DNA of 56,429 nt from a virus. Made by a program: the position numbers and the translations under genes. The stretch's first letter is position 1; every line of letters starts with the position of its first letter. This document shows, one piece after another, positions 1,831 to 56,429 of the stretch. The stretch is from the IMG/VR virus record IMGVR_UViG_3300020438_003800, positions 1-56,429 of that record. One strand, 5' to 3'. The notes beneath the pieces were generated by a model. That model searched no databases and was not told where the DNA came from. It worked only from the letters and a program-made list of their open reading frames with translations.

Positions 1831-2568
1831 TTATTTGTCTCCATTTGTATTAAGTATAGTATCAAAGCCTTTATTTGTCAAGAACTCTTTTACAGTGTGT
1901 TTAGGATAAAATCCTAATTTGTTTAACTCTAATGTATTAGCCTGTGTAATTTGTCTTTCTCCGGGTGTATTTAGGCGAACAGGAAGATCGGGCCTAATAT
2001 TTGAAATTTTAGTTGTAATACCTGTCCCTACATCAATTGGTCCTTTTACCTTACTACTCATAATTAGACCAATTGCAATACATAAGTCTTCAATGTGGAT
2101 AAAATCTCGTTCATGTGAAGTTACATATTCTAACTTATTATTGAGTAATTTATCAAAGAACATGTTAGCTCTTGGAACATCGCCATATACTGTATGAAAC
2201 CTCATAAAGCAAACATTAGGATGCGGAATAGATTCAATAATATTTTTACTTGCTGCATATGGATTCAAATGAGGTTCGTATTGGGAACTTGATCCTGCAA
2301 CTAGTACTCTTATATTCCTATATCTATCTAGTATACGCTTTGTGCCTTCTACATTATTGTACCAGTACTTCTTGGGGTCTTCCATGCTTTCCCTTACACC
2401 CCCGATACCTGCAAGGTGTATAACTATATCAACATCTGGCAGTTCACATGTTAATATATCATCTTCCTGATTTTCTTTAATATCTCGACCAATTATTTCA
2501 AAGTCTTTAAGGAACTCACAAAGTTGAGTACCTATAAAACCTTTATGACCAGTTACTAGTATTCGCAT
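1831..2568 (-). CDS. NAD-dependent epimerase/dehydratase (extended SDR)
   Basis: A 245-residue protein, shorter than typical 300-340 residue nucleotide-sugar epimerases. The N-terminus has the Rossmann motif TGHKGFIG, then HLAGIGG, the active-site SSSQY region and the catalytic pair YAASK. This fits a nucleotide-sugar 4-epimerase or 4,6-dehydratase; the substrate cannot be told. It follows the phosphomannomutase and cytidylyltransferase genes with a 26-bp overlap, so the three probably work on one activated sugar or polyol. The GGAGGTT ribosome-binding site is strong. The 3' end also carries the clamp promoter. Confidence 0.82.
   Translation of the reverse strand: MRILVTGHKGFIGTQLCEFLKDFEIIGRDIKENQEDDILTCELPDVDIVIHLAGIGGVRESMEDPKKYWYNNVEGTKRILDRYRNIRVLVAGSSSQYEPHLNPYAASKNIIESIPHPNVCFMRFHTVYGDVPRANMFFDKLLNNKLEYVTSHERDFIHIEDLCIAIGLIMSSKVKGPIDVGTGITTKISNIRPDLPVRLNTPGERQITQANTLELNKLGFYPKHTVKEFLTNKGFDTILNTNGDK
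1853..1881 (-). promoter_or_regulatory. Sigma70-like early promoter for the clamp gene
   Basis: On the minus strand the -35 box TTGACA (1876-1881) and -10 box TATACT (1853-1858) are separated by exactly 17 bp. The promoter sits inside the last codons of the epimerase gene. The predicted start is near 1846, leaving a short leader with a GGAGA ribosome-binding site before ATG 1830. It would let the clamp be expressed apart from the sugar genes. Confidence 0.75.
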
Positions 2569-3250
2569 CTAATAACCTCCATGTGTTTCTCCAATCTTTT
2601 ACATTAAAATTTTTGCCTGATACATTTACAGCTGCTAATGGGTAATCATTGCCGCCTTGATCAATTCTATCTCCATAAAAATAAATTTTATCTTCTACTT
2701 CAAAGTCTTTTAGTATTTGACTTTTGTCTGCGCCAACTGGACCAATATCTATTCCTGTTTCGCCACCTACTGTCGCTGTAATATCTTTGAATAAACTGTT
2801 GATTTGAAATGCAATTGTTTCTCGTTCTCTACTATCTGTATCATGTTTTATATACAACTGTCGTTCATCGTAACTGCAATTACGTCCTACAATGCTAAAA
2901 TTAACCATTCCCGGACGTTCTTCAATATGATTACCTGTACGTAAAGAAAAAGAACTTCCTTGTAACCAACCTAGCAATATTGCTTTAAGGTCGTTTGGCA
3001 TAGTCCAATCACTTGTTTTTATATTTTGACCTTTTTCATATACATCGCTACCTGAACAGTTATATACTTTCTTTACAGCCATTACTATGTCATTACCTAC
3101 TTGTTCTACTGTTTTTGCATAGTCACTGCCAGTAACAAGATAAACATCATTGTTATTACAAAAGTTTAGAAAAAACTCTTGAAATAACTGATCCATTCTT
3201 CCTCTGCTAGGAGTTAATGTACCATCAACATCAAATACGTACTTAATCAT
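2543..3250 (-). CDS. Phosphomannomutase, eukaryotic (HAD) type
   Basis: A 235-residue protein matching the alpha-PMM family of the HAD superfamily, usually about 245-250 residues. The nucleophile motif FDVDGTLTPSR puts Asp7 and Asp9 at the active site. ERPGMVNFSIVGR is the cap-domain substrate motif, and GGETGIDIGPVGADKSQIL and FYGDRIDQGGNDYPLA are the late HAD motifs for Lys and Mg binding. The reaction is mannose-6-phosphate to mannose-1-phosphate, with glucose phosphates as possible substrates. It overlaps both neighbours. The family is best known in eukaryotes, with scattered bacterial and viral members. Confidence 0.88.
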   Translation of the reverse strand: MIKYVFDVDGTLTPSRGRMDQLFQEFFLNFCNNNDVYLVTGSDYAKTVEQVGNDIVMAVKKVYNCSGSDVYEKGQNIKTSDWTMPNDLKAILLGWLQGSSFSLRTGNHIEERPGMVNFSIVGRNCSYDERQLYIKHDTDSRERETIAFQINSLFKDITATVGGETGIDIGPVGADKSQILKDFEVEDKIYFYGDRIDQGGNDYPLAAVNVSGKNFNVKDWRNTWRLLDANTSNWS

Positions 3251-20174: not shown

Positions 20175-21695
20175 CTATTTTTGGAGGGTATAGTCACCAA
20201 TTACTATACTGTCTATTGCTGTTTTGTGGAATATATCCCAGCAATTAGACTTATATCCTGCAATTGGTTTTGTGTTTACATTTAAACTTGTGTTTAGTAA
20301 CATAGGAATGCCTGTAAGCTTCCTAAATTCTTCTATTAATTCAGCATATAGAGGGTTTTCGTTCCCTACAGTCTGTATACGACATGTATTATCCACATGA
20401 GTAATAGGAGCAAATGCCTTTGGATCTCTAACTTTTTGCACATATAGCATATATGGACTAGGTTCGTTCCACTCAAAATAATCATTTACATGATCTAACA
20501 ACACAGATGCACCAAATGGTCTGTATGGCTCTCTAAACTTTACTTTACTGTTTATAATGTCTTTGCCATTTTCTACATTTGGATTCATCAGCACCGATCT
20601 ATTACCTAGTGCCCGCGGTCCTATTTCCCCGTGTCCTTGATACCATCCTACTATGTCTCCTTTTGCAAGACGTTCGGCAGTTTGTTTAATGGTTTTTGTT
20701 GATGCAACTGAACCAGGATGTTGGTCATCTTGCCAAAAAGGAAATCCTGAAGTATCAAAGGAGTCAGCATCATGTATTTGTCGCAAAACTTCTATACAAC
20801 CTAAACTTAACCCGCCATCATAGTTGTGAGGTGGTATATGTAAGTTAGGTATTACCTTTTTAATCTTAGTATTAATACAGGTATTTTGCGCAATTCCGCC
20901 TGTGTATGTAACTACTTCATTTGGATTACAATGCTCTAAAAAATAATTAGGATATATTTTTTCTAAATGGTCATGTACTGTGCGTAACCAGTTTACCCAT
21001 TCACATTCTACTAAGTTTTTACTACCTTTATATGCATACCATTTTTGTATATTTAAAAGTTCAGCAATATCGTACATTCCGAAGTGTGAAATTTGTTTAT
21101 AAAAATCTAAATCAAAATTTCCATATGACTTTAGTCCCATTAATTTACCAGCATGATCTAAATGATAGCCATTCATGCCAACATGCTCGCCGATTGTGCC
21201 AAAATACCTACCTATACTCTCTGCTTCGGATAATTTAGCATAGTGTGTTTGTTTTTTATTCTTATATATTGTATGCGATCGTTCATCGTCGCCAAAGCCG
21301 TCAAATACAAAGTCTGTAGTAGATTCTATACCCATGGGCCAGCAACTCATTACATGTGCATAATGATGGTCTATTCTATAAATTGGACACTTTATTTGTT
21401 CCCAGTGAGGGTATTGATGATTTAGTATTTCATATGGAGCATCGTAATCATTTACTTGAATACACTCATAGTTTTTATCATCTATAACTAAACCTATAGC
21501 ATCAATATCGCTAACATTTATATTCCATTCTTCTAACACAAATAACCATTCCCACAAGTTACTGTAGTAGTGGTGTTTTATTTGTGTATTACGTTCAGTT
21601 TTTCTGTATTTTACTTTTGAACCGATTGACAGTGCTATATTTGTGTCGTGTTCACACAGTCTTAGGCCCAGGAATACTGGTTGATTTTTTATCAT
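20175..21695 (-). CDS. Carbamoyltransferase, NodU/TobZ family
   Basis: A 506-residue protein. The N-terminal Kae1-like domain has HHYAHVMS near residue 113 (metal-binding His pair), FDGFGDDE and a TGGIAQN motif near 268. The C-terminal domain has GWYQGHGEIGPRALGNRS near 350-367, KFREPYRPFGASVL and LLNTSLNVN, all strongly conserved in NodU and TobZ, which move carbamoyl from carbamoyl-phosphate through carbamoyl-AMP onto a hydroxyl. The phage target could be a sugar or a modified nucleotide. It overlaps the o-spanin gene as ATGA. Confidence 0.88.
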   Translation of the reverse strand: MIKNQPVFLGLRLCEHDTNIALSIGSKVKYRKTERNTQIKHHYYSNLWEWLFVLEEWNINVSDIDAIGLVIDDKNYECIQVNDYDAPYEILNHQYPHWEQIKCPIYRIDHHYAHVMSCWPMGIESTTDFVFDGFGDDERSHTIYKNKKQTHYAKLSEAESIGRYFGTIGEHVGMNGYHLDHAGKLMGLKSYGNFDLDFYKQISHFGMYDIAELLNIQKWYAYKGSKNLVECEWVNWLRTVHDHLEKIYPNYFLEHCNPNEVVTYTGGIAQNTCINTKIKKVIPNLHIPPHNYDGGLSLGCIEVLRQIHDADSFDTSGFPFWQDDQHPGSVASTKTIKQTAERLAKGDIVGWYQGHGEIGPRALGNRSVLMNPNVENGKDIINSKVKFREPYRPFGASVLLDHVNDYFEWNEPSPYMLYVQKVRDPKAFAPITHVDNTCRIQTVGNENPLYAELIEEFRKLTGIPMLLNTSLNVNTKPIAGYKSNCWDIFHKTAIDSIVIGDYTLQK

Positions 21696-47494: not shown

Positions 47495-47624
47495 TTGGTG
47501 CTCCAACTTGAACTCTTATTTTACCAGCTGTGACTATTACTTGTCTAGGCTGCGGGTTTTTATTATCTACAAATGCTTTTGCATCTTTTCGTTTTATATA
47601 ATTATTAATTTTTTCTTGCTTCAT
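47475..47624 (-). CDS. 49-residue basic micro-protein between two fibre genes
   Basis: A short gene in a gap that otherwise looks empty. ATG 47624 forms TAATG with the stop of the 2644-residue protein, and its TGA lies 20 bp inside the next fibre gene. It begins MKQEKINNYIKRKDAKAF, is basic and ends GAPNGKTNN. Junction fit is the main support. A fibre-assembly chaperone is a guess from position. Confidence 0.55.
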   Translation of the reverse strand: MKQEKINNYIKRKDAKAFVDNKNPQPRQVIVTAGKIRVQVGAPNGKTNN

Positions 47625-50600
47625 TATACTCTTCCTACCACAACTTCTACTGTGCCTTTGCCTAGGTCTTCTTTATTTTCTAAAGCTTTACCTATTACAG
47701 TGCCTAGTTGTGGTATAGTTGCTACAATAGCATATCCTGGTATTGCACTAGTTACTAGTAAGTCACCTTTTTGTACTTGTCCAATTACTTTACATGGAAC
47801 TCTTCCTTGCAACGCTACAGCTACAACATTCTCGCCTTCTTGATGACTATTCATTAAGTATGCTGGATTTGTTGAAACAACGCCTGCAACTCGTGGATCA
47901 AGTTTTTGTGTAGAAAGTGTAACTTCGGCATCGCCGCCAAACACTACTACTGTGCTTGCTTCATAATTTGCATCAGCTGTGTAATTCTCCGCTAAGTCAG
48001 CATAGTAAGCTTCAGTTGCTGTACCACGGAAAGTTGTTGCATAAACATTTGCATATTTTCTTGATGCACTTCCAATGTCATATGAATTAGTTGTGTCAGG
48101 TAACATACCTGACGAACTAAACAGCGCAGGTACAACACTTGAATTTGTTGCTGAATCTGCTGTAACAATTGCAACTTGTCCTACTAGAGATTTACCAGTA
48201 TTAGCACCAATTGCTATTGCTGTACTTGCTGCGCCCTTTTCGCCCGGCGCTTCAATAAAGCTACTGTAGATCCAATCGACACCTAATGCTTTTTCACCGT
48301 TAAAGTTTGATAAACCTTGTAAAGTACTTTCAGTAACGCCAGTTGAACTAATGTTTACACTACCTGCAATTTCTAAAGTTGGGAATGTAGGCGCAACATA
48401 TCCAGGATCACCTGGATTGCCGATTGCCGCTGCGCCACCTGCTGCTCTTAGCAATTCACCTTGCGAAGGAGTTTTAAGAATAACTGTTGTGCCGTCCAAT
48501 GATAAAACTTCATAACTGCTATCACCACCTAATATTAGTGAGTTTGCTTGTACACTACCGCTAGCATCTGTTTTAACAATTGAGTTAACCTCTCCAGAGA
48601 TTGTTACGTTTGAAATACCATATGTGCCTTCGCCTGTTCTAATAAGTGCTTGACCTGCATCAGATACTGAAGATATTAGACTAATAAAGTCTGCATCTGC
48701 AAGTCCGCCACCTTCTTGTATAACTCTACTAAACGGAATCTGATCAATATCATTATCAGAACTGTCTCCTTCGTAGTTACCAAGTACTGTTCCGTCGTTA
48801 ATTCTTTGTATTTTTTCTAATGGTATTTGACCGTTACTTATACTAACAAAACCACTTGTGCTTGTAAACAATGCACTATCAAATGACGCAACACCTAAGT
48901 CATTTTGTGTAATGCCTGTAGCATCTGCTCTAGTTGCAGCTTCATTAAGATTTAACTTACTTTGAGAAATATTTGCTGTGCCTTGTACGTCATCGTTTAC
49001 AATAGTATTTGGCTTCATTTGTAAGTTAAGCTCTGTATACCTTTCTGTTACAACGCCGCCGACTTCTGTTACAACTTTGCTTGTGAGTATTTCAATATCA
49101 CTTGCGGCACTAGCAACACCATTTACCCATTCGTCAACTGGTCCGTCTACTACTCTGCCTTCTGCGCCGCCCGAAACAAGTAATACATCAGCATCAGGTG
49201 ATGCACCAGCCGGCTTCCCATCACTAAATATTCCTGCTGTCGGAGTATAAGTGATTTCTACTAGATTGCCTTCGTAGCCATCTACATCTTGTACGTCTAT
49301 AATTTGACCTGTAGCACCAGATATGCTTCCAGTAAAAATATCACCTCTAGCAAACGGTCCATTTACTACTGTTGATCCTAACACTAATAATTTTTTATAT
49401 TCTGTAGAAACAAGTAGTTGGTTTGGTGCATGACTTTGGTATTGTAAACTACGTAGATCTTTTATTTCGTCCCCTAGTCCACGCCCGTCATCAACATACG
49501 CTTTTGTAGCTGCATCAGAGTCACTATCAGGTAATTTAATATTTGTAATTGTGTTTCCAGCGGCATTTAAGTCGTCTGTCATTGGCACAGCACCGTTTGG
49601 AGCAAGTACCCCAGGTCCTAACTTATTAGCAACAGGAGCGCCGTTAACATCATAACCCAAACGCCTATTTACATAACCACGTACCGCAAGTTCTGTAGGA
49701 ACAGTATCAGCAGCATTATCAGTCATTGCTGTATCTGTACTAAATTCAGTTACAACCACACCACGCTTAAAGCCAATACCATCAACATCTGATAGTGCAA
49801 GTGATGCACTAAATGTTACTGTACCAGTACCTTGGTCAACACTAAAGAATTTACCTACTCTAAATATACCGTTTTGGTCTGTGCTTACATAAAACACTCT
49901 ACCTTTGGTTCTTTCATCTACTTCTTTAGATTGATCTTTTTCTCCTGGCTCTCCAAAAATAACAGTTGGATAGTTTGATTCATTAAATCCGCCTGAGCCT
50001 ACATCTAAGAAGTCATGTGATGTAGCACGACATGTACTAATATTTACAGTAACAGTACCAGTTGCACCAGCTTGTAGTCCTGCTCTAATAGTAACAACAT
50101 TTGATCCTAATACAACTGGACTTGCTAAACCTGTTGAGAGTGTTGTATCATCTCCCGGTTCAGTAAAGTCTTCTAAATTAATACTGTCTATTGCTAGAAT
50201 ATCTACAATAACGTATTCATTATCTTCTGCAATAGGCACAATAGTATCTGCATCGTTAACACCTCTAGCATTGAATACAAAATGTTTTTTACCTTGCCAT
50301 ACAAATATAGGAGCTTCAGTTAATGATTCTGCTGTTGCTCCAATTGGTCTATTTGCTACATCTGTTCTTGCATTATTATTGAGTCTAAATATTTCGTTGT
50401 CATCGAGTACAGGTTGTAGAGCAAGAACAGTGTCTCCTGCTGTTCCGCCTTTTGTAGTTCCTGTATTAGATAATGCAGTTTCTTGTGCTTTAGCACTTTC
50501 TATCAACATTCTAATATAATCATACGAACTATCAAAACCAGACTGTAATTCGTTATTTTCTAATTCATTACCTAAACTATCTGATGTTAAAAAACTAATA

Positions 50601-53600
50601 CTTCTGTAAACAAAGTTTGGATTTTCATCAAAGATTACCGCAGTACTTGGTCGTATTGTAAGCACATCAGGTCTTGCAAAATCACTTATAATATGAGTTT
50701 GATTTCTTCTGTATTGAAGTAATGTGCCAAATGGAACATCTTCAATTAATCCGTCTGTACTGAATTGATTATCACTTGTTGAGAAATTAAGTTTTCGTAC
50801 TCTACCGTCGTACATTGGTGTGTGCGAATCTACAAACGGACTACCTGTAATTGCCGCTTTTGTAATAACACCGCTATTTACTTCTAAGATTGTAATAAAT
50901 GCATCGTTGTCTGTTGTGCCGCCGCCTAGATTAGCACCACTTACTACCATACTATCGCCTACGGTATAATTAGTACCACCGTTTACAATTTCAATAGTGT
51001 ATCCATATTTTATAGTTTTATAAAAATTAAATAATGCGCCTGCTGCTGTAACGTTATCTATTGTGATAGAATCAAATGGCACTTCAGTACCAATATTTTT
51101 CATTCTACCAACATGAGCTCCTGTTGGGGAAGCATTAGCTACTTCGTATCTTGCAAATATATTCTCTGTTGGGTGGTAAACATCAAACTCTGATCTATTG
51201 CTTGGATTCTCTTTAAAGTCGTATGCAAATATGAACAATCCGTTTTTATTACTACCGTATCCTTGAGTATCAACTCTTAAAGGAACACTATTTGCGCCTA
51301 AAGGTGTTACTACTGAATCGCCAGTAATTGGTCCTGTAATGCTAATTTGGTTGGTTGTATCAAAAGCACCACTAGTGTCTGTAAGATAAATTACTCTTTC
51401 GCCAGTTGGAGAAACTACGCTGTCGCCTAATTGGCTAGTATTCGAACTTACTACACCTGTAGCATTTGTTGCTGATTGTGTAAGTTGATCACCTTCTTGT
51501 AAGATTACTGGACCAGTTAATTCAAGTATAACGTCTGCATGGAATGTTTTAGCACTTTCCATCATATCTTGCGCCAACTGAATAGCGTCTGGAATTTCGT
51601 TTGGATCTGATCCTTCAGCAACTAGTCCGTATTCACCATAACAACTTGAACCTGTTAGTGATCTAATCTCTGAGCCGTTTTTAGCATAGTAAGATGTATG
51701 ACAGTAGTATGTGAACATACTAACCATTTCAGATAGCGCACCGTTAACAGCAACAAGACCGTAACCTTTATCGTTAATTTGCGTAAAGTCATTACCCAAC
51801 ATACTTCTATTACCAGCTGTTTGGATAGTAATTGGAATAGGTGTTGATAGATCGCTTAAATCAACACCAGTTGCAAGCGAGCTTGTTAAACCACTAAAGC
51901 CTAATCCAGAGTTTGAACCAGGACTTAGTATAAGTGTAGCTGTACCAAGTTCTTTATCATAGTTTGTGACTGCATTAATTTGAAAACGTCTACCGTCAAT
52001 ATAAAAAACACTCGGTGTTTCTGGCCTACGTACAAATAAGCCCTGCGGCTCTGCTTGTGAGCCTAAACTTTGTATGTCTAGTTTAAATGCATCGCCGTCA
52101 ACTCTTGAAGTTACCCTAACAGCAGAGTTACCAACAAATGCATCTACAAATAGTCCGCCTCTAAATACTTGTTTATTATCCGACTTTGCAAATCCTGTAC
52201 CTGTTTGGCAATATGGAGACTTAGTAAGCACTTGTCCTTCTGGATCAAGTACCATTTGGAAGCCGCCGTGTCCTTGTCCTGTAATGTTACGCAAAATGGT
52301 GGCATCGTTCATTAAGAACACATCCATTTCATCATTACGAAGTGGCGGGTTATATTCTGCGTTAAATGCAAAAACAACAGTTTCTATTAAGTTATATGCA
52401 ATAAGTTGGATGCCATCTACTTGTCTCCAAAATTGCAAAATTTCTGTTGCATCAAATGTTGCTCCGGAAGTATGTTCTGCTGTAGGAGTATAATATCTAT
52501 CTTCTCCACCTACAAAAAACTTAACTACATTTCCTAATCTGTAAAGGTTTCCTGATGACCATGATTCGGGATCACCATCACCATTAAAATCATCAAATGC
52601 ATAAGTTAAGTTTGCATTTGGATCTGGAGCTGCGCCACTTGGTCCATAAAGCGTAGCAGGACTTATGCCTCTAACAATATCGTTTGCAAGGGTATAGATA
52701 TGACGTAATCCATCTACAGTTTCTACTTCTGTTCCAACTTCTACAGCGCCCGAGTAGTATTCACCTTGTGCTTCTAAAGAAAATTCATTACCTCCTGCAC
52801 GATAGTCTTTGACCATTGCTTCTACAACTAAGCCAGCGTCTCTAAAACATTTTGTTCTTGAATAACCTACAGAACCAATTAGTGCAGGATAGGTTGTTTC
52901 TACATAGTTTACAACTTGCTCCTGGATAAATTCTTTGTTATCAATCAATGATAACGCAGCAGTTTCCCAGTTACCGATGTTTTCGTAACCAGCACCTATG
53001 TTTCTCAATTTATTTGGCTTTAGCAAATAGTGATTACCAAAATATCCTTCTACTTGATTTGTTAATGGGTTAGTATATTGTATACCGTTTGGAACTGTTA
53101 GCACTGTAAAGCTATATGGTGCAGCACCGTTGTTGCCTAGTGCAGAATCTTGTACAGTTACAATTTCGTTTGCTTGAAAACTGTCGCCAGCCGTAATTAC
53201 AGTAACGTCTGTAACTGCACCTGTATTATCAACTGTAATATCAAATTTTGCATCTTTACCTAATTTACTTGTTGCATAATCTACTTGGGTTATAGTGTAA
53301 GTACCAGCAGTTCTCAGAGCATCTGCACTTGCTGTAAAGTCAATAGTTTCAATACTTGATTTACCTAAAATAAGTCCATCAAACTCGGCGTCTCTATAAA
53401 AGAATGTATTTGCATATCTAGATTGTGATACACGATCTTTTGGTCTTACAATTACTCGTCTAAACTCATCACCTTTGACACTTACGTTAGCAGGAACTCT
53501 AATTGGAAGATCTTCTTCATAAATACCACTTTCGATCCTAATACTAATTTGTGTATCATTAACAATATTACCATACTCTAATGGTTCACCTGATTGGAAT

Positions 53601-55558
53601 TCAAATGGCTCTAATAGTTGTACTTCTATTTCGTCTGTTTCAACAGTAGAAACAGGTCTTGAGCCGCTTTCGTGCTTGTAGTCAATTATTCTACCAATTG
53701 CTCCAGAATTTTTACCACGTACAACTTTACCTGGAATAATGTCAGTGTTTGTAGGATTAGCTTGATCAATAAAACCAAAGTTACCGTTACCTATATTAAT
53801 TTTGTATGTAGTTTGTCCATCAACAATACCGGGCGCATCTAATGGGCCGTTGTTAATCACATCAAGAATTACATCAAACTTTGCTCCTATAGCATTATCT
53901 GCTAATGTATCTGGTAATGTTAAGTCTGTAACCTGTGGTACACGGCTTTGATATGTAGTTGGTACTGCTGTGTTAGTTAAAATATATGTTGTTACCAGTA
54001 ACTTTGCATATTCAATGCCTGCAACTGTGTATGACTTTTGAGAACCAATTGCTTTTTGCGCACTCACACTTGAATAGTATCTTAGCCCAGAGTATCGTGA
54101 TAGGTAGTTTGCATTGTTTCCTAATAGTGAATCTAAGCTCACACTATCCAGCATTAGTGTAACATCAAGTTGACATCTTTCTTTATTATATTGATCAGCA
54201 AACTCTGGAAATGTTGCATCAATATAACCTGTAACTTCTTTAGCAATAAACTCTTTGTTTGCAACAATTATTGCTCTAGCATTGGATCTACCTGATATAG
54301 GACTTGTAATGCCTGCTGTGTCAATTAAACCTTCATTTGCTCCAGCGTTAAATGTCATAGTCTGCATATACGGACCAGGCTCAAACGGTGACGCTAAAAT
54401 AATTTCTTCTGCTTTTCGAGCCGCGGCATTAATTGTTCTATATGCATATGCTGCACTTCTACCTTCTTTGCCTACCGGCGTAAATGGCTGTGCATCTGTA
54501 CCTGCTGTACTTACATACAAATTTACTGTACTAGGTTTTGCTGCATTATCTACGTAAAGCTTTGAAGCGGCTTGTAAATCATCTGGACCAAATGGCAACC
54601 CTGTTCCTACTAATTCGCCAGGGTGATCAAACAAGTTTAAGGCACCTGTCATAGTGTCGCCTTCTCGTCTTGTAATACTCTTACGTGGAAGCGCAACATT
54701 GCTCAACCAATTGCCTTCTAGATTATTATCAAGTGCGCTATCTGTAAGTTCAAATGTACCTGTACCGCCGGATAGTAATATTCTGCCTGTGCCATTAATT
54801 GCGTCTGATTCATTTGAATACAAACCAAGATTGTTATCGTCTGCTATGTCAATATAATAAAGGTTGCCTGAAACAACACCAAACGGATCGTCCCCGGTTG
54901 AATTAAAAACAAATGGTGCTCCTGCAAAGGCTTGACTTAATCCATGTGAATTTTTTACAAAGTATCCTGATGTGATACTGTCAGCTGTAATACTGTACGA
55001 TGATTTATCAGCTGGTTCTGAACCTACTCTAAATCCGCCTCCTGCTACTGCCTTTTCTTGATAATTTCTATCTGCATAATTTTTGTTAATTACTAGCGCA
55101 CCAAGTTCTAAATCTGTGCCATGGACAGAATTAAATGAGTCAATAGCAGCTTGACTTACACTTACACCGGCAATAGGTTGAGTTGCCGCATCAAGTGGAC
55201 CACTTAGTGTAGGTTGTGGATCATTAGAAACTTTGGATACTAACTGCCTGATAATAACTTTGCCGTCTATACTAAAATCAAACCCGATAGTATCTGTTGT
55301 ACCTGATAAGGCATTATCAGAAGCTAGTTCTAGTAAATTTAAGCCACTGCCATCTGAACGCACAAGTGGTACTTTGTTTTCATTACCTACATAACTATTT
55401 GGAGTATCACTTAGGTCAGTAAAGCTTATTTGTCCGCCTATACCAAAAACTGCATATAGTTCTTGAAAGTTCTCATTGACTTTACGAAATGACTCGCGAA
55501 TACTATCGCCTGTACCGTCATTACCTTCTACACCAATATCTACACCTTGTCTTGCCAT
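47624..55558 (-). CDS. Giant virion fibre/baseplate protein (2644 residues)
   Basis: The largest gene. Residues 13-35 hold the attachment module NDGTGDSIRESFRKVNENFQ. The long middle matches the giant structural proteins of marine T4-like phages, with SPYCQTGTGFAKSDNKQVF near residue 1135, DQSKEVDERTKGRVFYVSTD, and several repeats of GGTNYTVGDSM and GDSFQANEIV type. The C-terminal 150 residues (YADLAENYTADANYEAST, then VALQGRVPCKVIGQVQKGDL) form a conserved fibre-tip domain common to many phages. It is probably a host-binding or baseplate-spanning fibre. Late by position; no box is seen in the one-base gap upstream. Confidence 0.8.
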   Translation of the reverse strand: MARQGVDIGVEGNDGTGDSIRESFRKVNENFQELYAVFGIGGQISFTDLSDTPNSYVGNENKVPLVRSDGSGLNLLELASDNALSGTTDTIGFDFSIDGKVIIRQLVSKVSNDPQPTLSGPLDAATQPIAGVSVSQAAIDSFNSVHGTDLELGALVINKNYADRNYQEKAVAGGGFRVGSEPADKSSYSITADSITSGYFVKNSHGLSQAFAGAPFVFNSTGDDPFGVVSGNLYYIDIADDNNLGLYSNESDAINGTGRILLSGGTGTFELTDSALDNNLEGNWLSNVALPRKSITRREGDTMTGALNLFDHPGELVGTGLPFGPDDLQAASKLYVDNAAKPSTVNLYVSTAGTDAQPFTPVGKEGRSAAYAYRTINAAARKAEEIILASPFEPGPYMQTMTFNAGANEGLIDTAGITSPISGRSNARAIIVANKEFIAKEVTGYIDATFPEFADQYNKERCQLDVTLMLDSVSLDSLLGNNANYLSRYSGLRYYSSVSAQKAIGSQKSYTVAGIEYAKLLVTTYILTNTAVPTTYQSRVPQVTDLTLPDTLADNAIGAKFDVILDVINNGPLDAPGIVDGQTTYKINIGNGNFGFIDQANPTNTDIIPGKVVRGKNSGAIGRIIDYKHESGSRPVSTVETDEIEVQLLEPFEFQSGEPLEYGNIVNDTQISIRIESGIYEEDLPIRVPANVSVKGDEFRRVIVRPKDRVSQSRYANTFFYRDAEFDGLILGKSSIETIDFTASADALRTAGTYTITQVDYATSKLGKDAKFDITVDNTGAVTDVTVITAGDSFQANEIVTVQDSALGNNGAAPYSFTVLTVPNGIQYTNPLTNQVEGYFGNHYLLKPNKLRNIGAGYENIGNWETAALSLIDNKEFIQEQVVNYVETTYPALIGSVGYSRTKCFRDAGLVVEAMVKDYRAGGNEFSLEAQGEYYSGAVEVGTEVETVDGLRHIYTLANDIVRGISPATLYGPSGAAPDPNANLTYAFDDFNGDGDPESWSSGNLYRLGNVVKFFVGGEDRYYTPTAEHTSGATFDATEILQFWRQVDGIQLIAYNLIETVVFAFNAEYNPPLRNDEMDVFLMNDATILRNITGQGHGGFQMVLDPEGQVLTKSPYCQTGTGFAKSDNKQVFRGGLFVDAFVGNSAVRVTSRVDGDAFKLDIQSLGSQAEPQGLFVRRPETPSVFYIDGRRFQINAVTNYDKELGTATLILSPGSNSGLGFSGLTSSLATGVDLSDLSTPIPITIQTAGNRSMLGNDFTQINDKGYGLVAVNGALSEMVSMFTYYCHTSYYAKNGSEIRSLTGSSCYGEYGLVAEGSDPNEIPDAIQLAQDMMESAKTFHADVILELTGPVILQEGDQLTQSATNATGVVSSNTSQLGDSVVSPTGERVIYLTDTSGAFDTTNQISITGPITGDSVVTPLGANSVPLRVDTQGYGSNKNGLFIFAYDFKENPSNRSEFDVYHPTENIFARYEVANASPTGAHVGRMKNIGTEVPFDSITIDNVTAAGALFNFYKTIKYGYTIEIVNGGTNYTVGDSMVVSGANLGGGTTDNDAFITILEVNSGVITKAAITGSPFVDSHTPMYDGRVRKLNFSTSDNQFSTDGLIEDVPFGTLLQYRRNQTHIISDFARPDVLTIRPSTAVIFDENPNFVYRSISFLTSDSLGNELENNELQSGFDSSYDYIRMLIESAKAQETALSNTGTTKGGTAGDTVLALQPVLDDNEIFRLNNNARTDVANRPIGATAESLTEAPIFVWQGKKHFVFNARGVNDADTIVPIAEDNEYVIVDILAIDSINLEDFTEPGDDTTLSTGLASPVVLGSNVVTIRAGLQAGATGTVTVNISTCRATSHDFLDVGSGGFNESNYPTVIFGEPGEKDQSKEVDERTKGRVFYVSTDQNGIFRVGKFFSVDQGTGTVTFSASLALSDVDGIGFKRGVVVTEFSTDTAMTDNAADTVPTELAVRGYVNRRLGYDVNGAPVANKLGPGVLAPNGAVPMTDDLNAAGNTITNIKLPDSDSDAATKAYVDDGRGLGDEIKDLRSLQYQSHAPNQLLVSTEYKKLLVLGSTVVNGPFARGDIFTGSISGATGQIIDVQDVDGYEGNLVEITYTPTAGIFSDGKPAGASPDADVLLVSGGAEGRVVDGPVDEWVNGVASAASDIEILTSKVVTEVGGVVTERYTELNLQMKPNTIVNDDVQGTANISQSKLNLNEAATRADATGITQNDLGVASFDSALFTSTSGFVSISNGQIPLEKIQRINDGTVLGNYEGDSSDNDIDQIPFSRVIQEGGGLADADFISLISSVSDAGQALIRTGEGTYGISNVTISGEVNSIVKTDASGSVQANSLILGGDSSYEVLSLDGTTVILKTPSQGELLRAAGGAAAIGNPGDPGYVAPTFPTLEIAGSVNISSTGVTESTLQGLSNFNGEKALGVDWIYSSFIEAPGEKGAASTAIAIGANTGKSLVGQVAIVTADSATNSSVVPALFSSSGMLPDTTNSYDIGSASRKYANVYATTFRGTATEAYYADLAENYTADANYEASTVVVFGGDAEVTLSTQKLDPRVAGVVSTNPAYLMNSHQEGENVVAVALQGRVPCKVIGQVQKGDLLVTSAIPGYAIVATIPQLGTVIGKALENKEDLGKGTVEVVVGRV

Positions 55559-55984: not shown

Positions 55985-56287
55985 ATGTTAAATATAGTTA
56001 TGTTCATAAGAGAATTTAATAACGAAACCCGGCACATCCGCAAGAGCAAAATGGGCAAGGAACACACCTATAAGCGCAATCAGACTATTTGTGTGTTTAG
56101 GTGTGACAATTGTGACATAGAGTTTGTGCGGCCTAGAGGAAGTATGGATCCTAAGCGTTTAAATAATAACTATTTTCATGTGTGTAGTAACTGTGATTCT
56201 AAATCTTTTGCTCAAAAGAAAGGCGTAGAAAAGAAACAAGTCTGGAATATGAGTGCTTCTAGTTCTACGCCTATTGGTAAATTATAG
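55985..56287 (+). CDS. Small zinc-finger-like conserved phage protein
   Basis: A 100-residue plus-strand protein. CDNCDIEF near residue 40 and CSNCDSKSF near 67 are two CxxC knuckles, suggesting a single four-Cys zinc site. FVRPRGSMDPKRLNNNYFHV lies between them. I recall similar proteins in marine T4-like phages, some related to HNH-type zinc folds, but no HNH triad is seen. The start may be ATG 55985 or in-frame ATG 56000; neither has a clear ribosome-binding site, and a TATAAT ends four bases before the first ATG. Confidence 0.65.
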   Translation: MLNIVMFIREFNNETRHIRKSKMGKEHTYKRNQTICVFRCDNCDIEFVRPRGSMDPKRLNNNYFHVCSNCDSKSFAQKKGVEKKQVWNMSASSSTPIGKL

Positions 56288-56288
56288 A

Positions 56289-56360
56289 TTATCTAACACT
56301 AAAATACATAGTGATTTCAAATCCAAGTCTTATATTTTCATAAGTTGGTTTGGTCCACAT
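56289..56360 (-). CDS. pqqA: PqqA-like 23-residue peptide
   Basis: A very short gene, ATG 56360 to TAA 56289, with an AAGGAG ribosome-binding site 7 bp upstream. The peptide begins [14 protein letters not shown] and ends EITMYFSVR. This matches PqqA, the precursor of the redox cofactor pyrroloquinoline quinone: MWxKP at the start, then an aromatic-x-x-(L/I)R-x-G(F/L)E stretch, and the invariant Glu15-x3-Tyr19 pair that PqqE crosslinks. No pqqB-E genes are seen here. It may use host enzymes or have another role. It is convergent with the zinc-finger-like gene, one base apart. Confidence 0.7.
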
Positions 56361-56370
56361 AATAGTCTCC

Positions 56371-56429
56371 TTATAAATTTTTCCAAGTAAATGCTCCAAA
56401 GAACATTTCATCTTCTGACATCTGTCCCC
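56371..56429 (-). CDS. C-terminal end of a gene cut by the window edge
   Basis: The last 18 codons and TAA stop of a minus-strand gene are visible, reading [15 protein letters not shown] at the end. Its stop lies 10 bp before the PqqA-like ATG, so they may share a transcript. It could also be a 16-residue peptide starting at the in-frame ATG within this stretch. Nothing more can be said. Confidence 0.4.

Follow-up and report, generated by a model that had tools for sequence, protein, structure and literature searches.

Phages are known to carry fast-consumed or limiting parts of the energy systems of their hosts, such as cyanophage psbA and methanotroph-phage pmoC. These two genes encode enzyme subunits, whereas pqqA encodes a ribosomally made precursor from which a small-molecule cofactor, PQQ, is formed. 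A viral pqqA was reported in 2020 from the Lake Baikal T4-like population VP_266, together with a methanol dehydrogenase, and was proposed to be an auxiliary metabolic gene raising PQQ supply (PMC7678222). In 2026, pqqA was also among the viral genes listed for reservoir sediments (PMC13188868). Since viral pqqA has thus been listed before, the finding described here is a broad and under-annotated form of something already known. Orphan pqqA copies also occur in methylotrophic bacteria, one of which has three of them (PMC9851590). These are likewise extra copies lying apart from the pqq operon, but they are chromosomal, unlike the viral genes.

The window, meaning the whole stretch of DNA that was analysed, is a linear virus record and measures 56,429 bases. 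It contains a gp43-type DNA polymerase, a gp44-type clamp loader, a gp9/10-type baseplate protein and PhoH as viral hallmarks, along with an ATP-dependent protease of phrog_4871, DHFR and thymidylate synthase, and this gene content makes it, most likely, a piece of a T4-like myovirus genome. No match to its right part was found in INPHARED by megablast. The window phage thus resembles VP_266 as a T4-like virus with pqqA. However, VP_266 was reported with a Methylophilaceae host and a methanol dehydrogenase, whereas the window phage shows a host signal of the Pseudohongiella-containing family, no dehydrogenase was found in it, and its pqqA follows a cytochrome c/PHM-fold cassette.

The pqqA gene of the window and its neighbours

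The earlier note on this DNA had proposed a 23-codon PqqA-like gene with a clean ribosome-binding site, an MWxKP opening and a Glu-x3-Tyr pair, and had pointed to the Pfam PqqA model as a check. This description was borne out in each part (Table 1). The gene lies on the minus strand, which had been left unstated; read on the plus strand, the same interval gives an unrelated frame that is not PqqA. W2, K4, P5, E15 and Y19 were each found in the peptide, Glu15 and Tyr19 being the pair crosslinked by PqqE, and the GGAG of the Shine-Dalgarno sequence is spaced 6 nt from the ATG. The hmmscan scores are well above the cut-offs, which are 21.1 bits for PF08042, matched over model positions 1-19 of 19, and 20 bits for the NCBIfam equivalog TIGR02107. 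In the whole 56 kb record, pqqA is the only match to PF08042 above the cut-off (E 2.1e-10), and the same search gave no match in any of 14 control genomes. No family for the peptide was found in PHROGs. With its full-length match, its 23 residues, Glu15-x3-Tyr19 and the residues W2, P5, R11, G13 and T17, the peptide is, by sequence, a true PqqA. The gene differs from a typical pqqA in that it stands alone, does not head a pqq operon and is preceded by cytochrome c/copper-protein genes. A pqqA without pqqB-E nearby still fits the PqqA family, because orphan bacterial pqqA genes exist too.

Table 1. Features around pqqA in the window.
Feature	Positions	Strand	Basis or remark
pqqA, 23 codons and stop	56289..56360	minus	ATG at 56360, stop ends at 56289; PF08042 40 bits, TIGR02107 48.2 bits; translation; crosslink pair Glu15/Tyr19
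Shine-Dalgarno sequence of pqqA	56366..56372	minus	AAGGAGA, from the sequence
3' end (18 codons and stop) of the gene preceding pqqA, for a secreted cytochrome c/PHM-fold copper protein (putative activity)	56371..56427	minus	truncated by the contig end
100-aa ORF with paired CxxC motifs (zinc-ribbon-like)	55985..56287	plus	convergent, stops 1 bp short of pqqA
A-type Fe-S carrier-like protein, 125 aa	55560..55937	minus	downstream of pqqA; phrog_17776
2644-aa protein, probably tail fibre (role inferred)	47624..55558	minus	L093 and L088 have a homologue in the same position

The pqqA gene begins 10 nt downstream of the stop of the preceding gene, inside which the contig ends. The remaining 18-codon stretch is identical to the C-terminus of the protein P0003 in the related viral stretch L093, which is 75% identical to the window over 9 kb, and includes a predicted copper-ligand Met. 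The convergent CxxC ORF beside pqqA is an arrangement common to L093, L067, L088 and L037, and the L093 homologue of the Fe-S carrier-like protein matches PF01521 (E 1.8e-14). Elsewhere in the window, at 20175-21695 and 1831-3250, a Nol-like carbamoyltransferase (phrog_1601) and phosphomannomutase-/epimerase-like genes were observed, which suggest sugar modification by the phage.

Host signal and the cytochrome c/PHM-fold cassette

P0003 and a second protein, P0002, each start with what resembles a signal peptide and contain a CxxCH haem motif, and one or both are encoded just upstream of pqqA in L093, L003, L057/L157 (a 340-kb contig), L088, L142 and others. P0003 gave no hit in Pfam, no match in INPHARED and, by sequence against the PDB, only a weak match to hydrazine synthase. 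Its AlphaFold model (mean pLDDT 65) was matched by Foldseek to 3mll, a peptidylglycine alpha-hydroxylating monooxygenase (E 2.1e-11, TM about 0.4-0.5). H182, H183, H245, H316, H318 and M398 are invariant in 28 sequences, and this series (HH, H, HxH, M) resembles the PHM copper ligands in order and spacing. Because of the Foldseek match and these six ligand-like residues, P0003 was identified as a cytochrome c joined to a PHM-fold copper protein, an assignment that is good for the modelled fold; its activity is putative. No report of PHM-type cytochrome proteins in phages was found in the open-licence literature.

Relatives of P0003 were found in at least 116 viral stretches (e.g., L093:1244-3725 and L157:5001-6227). 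Immediately downstream of the relative lies pqqA in 19 of the 80 stretches kept, and PF08042 detects pqqA in 11 of 45 longer records with such relatives. The run at L062:3036-6725 comprises a cytochrome c, a redoxin-like protein, a PHM-like domain, PqqA and a CopC-domain protein, the small cytochrome c and the CopC-domain protein being extra genes in this locus. In the host homologues, the redoxin-like and PHM-like parts belong to a single protein, about 570 aa long.

The same protein points to the host. P0003 has matches at E <= 1e-100 in 37 of the 59 genomes of the Pseudohongiella-containing family, here the family of G007, of which a Pseudohongiella single-cell genome is a member. Among 274 genomes sampled from the class, a match at this threshold was found only in the centre genome, itself a member of that family. 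The nearest cellular PqqA peptides, near identical to the viral one (21 of 23 residues, L131), belong to pqqABDEC operons of Pseudohongiella-type MAGs. In one MAG contig of the family, a P0002-like fragment is followed by a P0003 of 77% identity; by this resemblance, the contig is a plausible donor. From gene homology, a member of the Pseudohongiella-containing family is the likely host of the window phage. Its relatives show pqqA at the end of a cassette for secreted proteins of the cytochrome c/copper (PHM-fold) kind, which are native to that family. Pseudohongiella-type genomes encode PQQ dehydrogenases above the cut-off and many weaker propeller homologues. Within the family, 18 of the 59 genomes have pqqA, each a single copy, and these 18 are precisely the genomes with pqqE; the remaining 41, in which assembly gaps are possible, have a match to neither, and many members may therefore take up PQQ from outside or manage without it.

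Spread and annotation of stand-alone viral pqqA

Relatives of the 23-aa peptide were sought with degenerate DNA patterns, and stand-alone pqqA was found in at least 120 IMG/VR viral contigs. A tblastn search of 50,697 phage records (INPHARED) matched 12 records. Nine are isolated methylophages, namely Venkman, MEP301, MEP401, MEP402, P19250A and four Melnitz. This count covers the isolates matched by the search; the taxonomy lists other methylophages as well, among them MEP431-434 and HIM624-A. One is a spring-water phage contig with a peptide 95.7% Venkman-like, and two are Acinetobacter contigs. For the methylophage isolates the host is recorded, and methylophage hosts depend on PQQ methanol dehydrogenases. 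Like the window phage, these isolates each have an intact stand-alone pqqA-like gene, and TIGR02107 accepts the four of their peptides that were tested; they differ from it in that their peptide is of the F type (MRFGFEVTMYVMNK-like). No peptide of the methylophage type was found in a class sample of 369 genomes.

Several candidates were set aside. The records filed as 'Acinetobacter phage MD-2021a' (L123, CAKLQF020000010.1, and CAKLQH020000055.1) were rejected as phage evidence; the former has ppk, a complete pqq operon and chromosome-like genes and is apparently a mis-filed bacterial contig. Peptides of the Klebsiella type, present in L039, L049, L051 and L108, were regarded as probably bacterial or mis-binned. 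In addition, a contig of a 'Verrucomicrobiales' MAG (L133, WTHG01000117.1) has pqqA without pqqB nearby and phage-like genes, and is probably a viral contig inside the bin.

The supposition that so short a gene is dropped by gene callers agrees with the existing annotation: PqqA is annotated in none of the phage records examined, and where pqqA matches, they have either no feature or one on the other strand, labelled a hypothetical protein. Stand-alone viral pqqA is thus common but missed, because it has only 23 codons. Among three methylophage papers (PMC9004378, PMC10580990 and PMC8163748), the one on Melnitz names PQQ only as a medium component and does not report pqqA, and the term is absent from the other two.

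Conservation, selection and candidate roles

What would a phage gain from pqqA alone? Probably, it supplies only the component that is consumed stoichiometrically, so that the PqqBCDE of the host keep making PQQ during infection. A functional pqqA would have been captured from a PQQ-making marine gammaproteobacterium, and PqqA would be translated at a high level by the phage. Host PqqE/PqqD would crosslink Glu15 to Tyr19, and a host protease, PqqB and PqqC would complete PQQ. Because one PqqA is spent per PQQ while PqqB-E are reusable catalysts, pqqA would be the single gene worth carrying after shutdown of host expression, and a phage needing periplasmic oxidation at that stage would gain the most per base from it. 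Until lysis, the extra PQQ would sustain or raise the activity of periplasmic quinoprotein dehydrogenases of the host, and hence its energy supply. Where secreted cytochrome c/copper proteins are encoded next to pqqA, as in this phage group, they would reinforce the same periplasmic oxidation system. PqqA peptide added to a Gluconobacter extract was 70-80% converted to PQQ (PMC9851590). In G. oxydans, overexpression of single pqq genes, pqqA included, altered PQQ levels according to work cited in PMC7936290, where gains from parts of the pathway are described as modest and those from full operons as better.

The suggestion in the earlier note that only the precursor is supplied holds for the sequences searched. 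By tblastn, no pqqB, pqqC, pqqD or pqqE was detected in the window, a genome fragment, or in the viral loci, save the apparently mis-filed Acinetobacter contig, and no PqqE orthologue was found in 38 whole viral records. Two PqqE matches in large viral records (24-27% identity) are weak and were judged to be other radical-SAM proteins.

The conservation of the peptide bears on whether it is a PqqA substrate or has been put to another use. When the search pattern did not constrain residues 15 and 19, 23 loci were obtained, and Glu15 and Tyr19 were found in every one. With a looser pattern and all loci, again with both positions unconstrained, the two residues were present in 90 of 90 distinct DNA sequences; their loss in related phages, which the earlier note had named as refuting, was thus not observed. 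W2, P5, R11, G13, E15, T17 and Y19 are invariant in 103 of 103 distinct viral genes, a set that is partly pattern-selected. It is unlikely that the product is instead a crosslinked peptide (RiPP), or a binder of PqqD/PqqE, serving to block host PQQ synthesis, in signalling or in phage competition. The ends of the viral peptides do vary at positions 21-23, one paper speculates that PqqA-type RiPPs take part in prokaryote-phage interactions (PMC11118758), and a PQQ importer is a phage receptor in E. coli (PMC12124388). However, all core residues are kept, as for a normal substrate and not for an inhibitor or repurposed peptide; the peptide of this phage group is nearly identical to PqqA of the inferred host; and the PqqB-E genes are not adjacent to pqqA.

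Genomic setting and selection bear on whether pqqA is a passenger of no use to the phage, acquired along with host DNA that lay beside it. Other host-derived genes do adjoin it in this phage group, but about 35 distinct neighbourhoods were observed upstream of viral pqqA, and the viral gene is always alone, not with pqqB as in cells. Moreover, pN/pS is 0.19-0.21 in three sets, and an SD-like motif precedes 101 of the 103 distinct viral genes, as against about 14% of control ATGs. In HMM score there is a gap between 12 and 47 bits, which no decayed copies fill. Viral pqqA is thus intact and, to judge from pN/pS, under purifying selection, because of which a passenger gene is very improbable.

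The upstream neighbourhoods also bear on expression. Immediately before pqqA, major-capsid genes from any of three unrelated families, phrog_267, phrog_334 and phrog_138, were observed (L074, L117, L014 and their cluster members), and the clusters headed by them account for 21 of the 122 loci whose upstream gene is identifiable. This position suggests strong late expression. A T4-type late-promoter box (TATAAATA) 1288 nt before the start of P0003 was seen in one lineage, which is too little to build on.

That the PQQ serves a quinoprotein encoded elsewhere in the phage genome, and not host dehydrogenases, is also very improbable: the Lake Baikal T4-like VP_139 and VP_266 were reported with methanol dehydrogenase, the latter also with PqqA (PMC7678222), but the PQQ alcohol dehydrogenase model TIGR03075 matched nothing in the window and none of 53 viral records, six phage genome records from INPHARED among them. 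As none of the phages tested yielded a PQQ dehydrogenase, the benefit of supplying PqqA to the host pathway would rest wholly on the host.

On balance, we lean towards a wider reading, in which phages infecting PQQ-dependent bacteria have generally and convergently acquired a stand-alone pqqA. Each of the unrelated lineages would carry nothing but a redox cofactor's consumable precursor, in many cases immediately after a capsid gene, and the marine T4-like group would add secreted cytochrome c/copper proteins to support periplasmic quinoprotein respiration of the host during infection. All nine PqqA-bearing INPHARED isolates infect methylotrophs, so pqqA may serve as a host-lineage marker for uncultured viruses. 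Since cultured phages of OM43 and LD28 carry the gene, PQQ levels and methanol oxidation are measurable in infected cells. What emerges would be a viral strategy of providing just a cofactor's ribosomal precursor.
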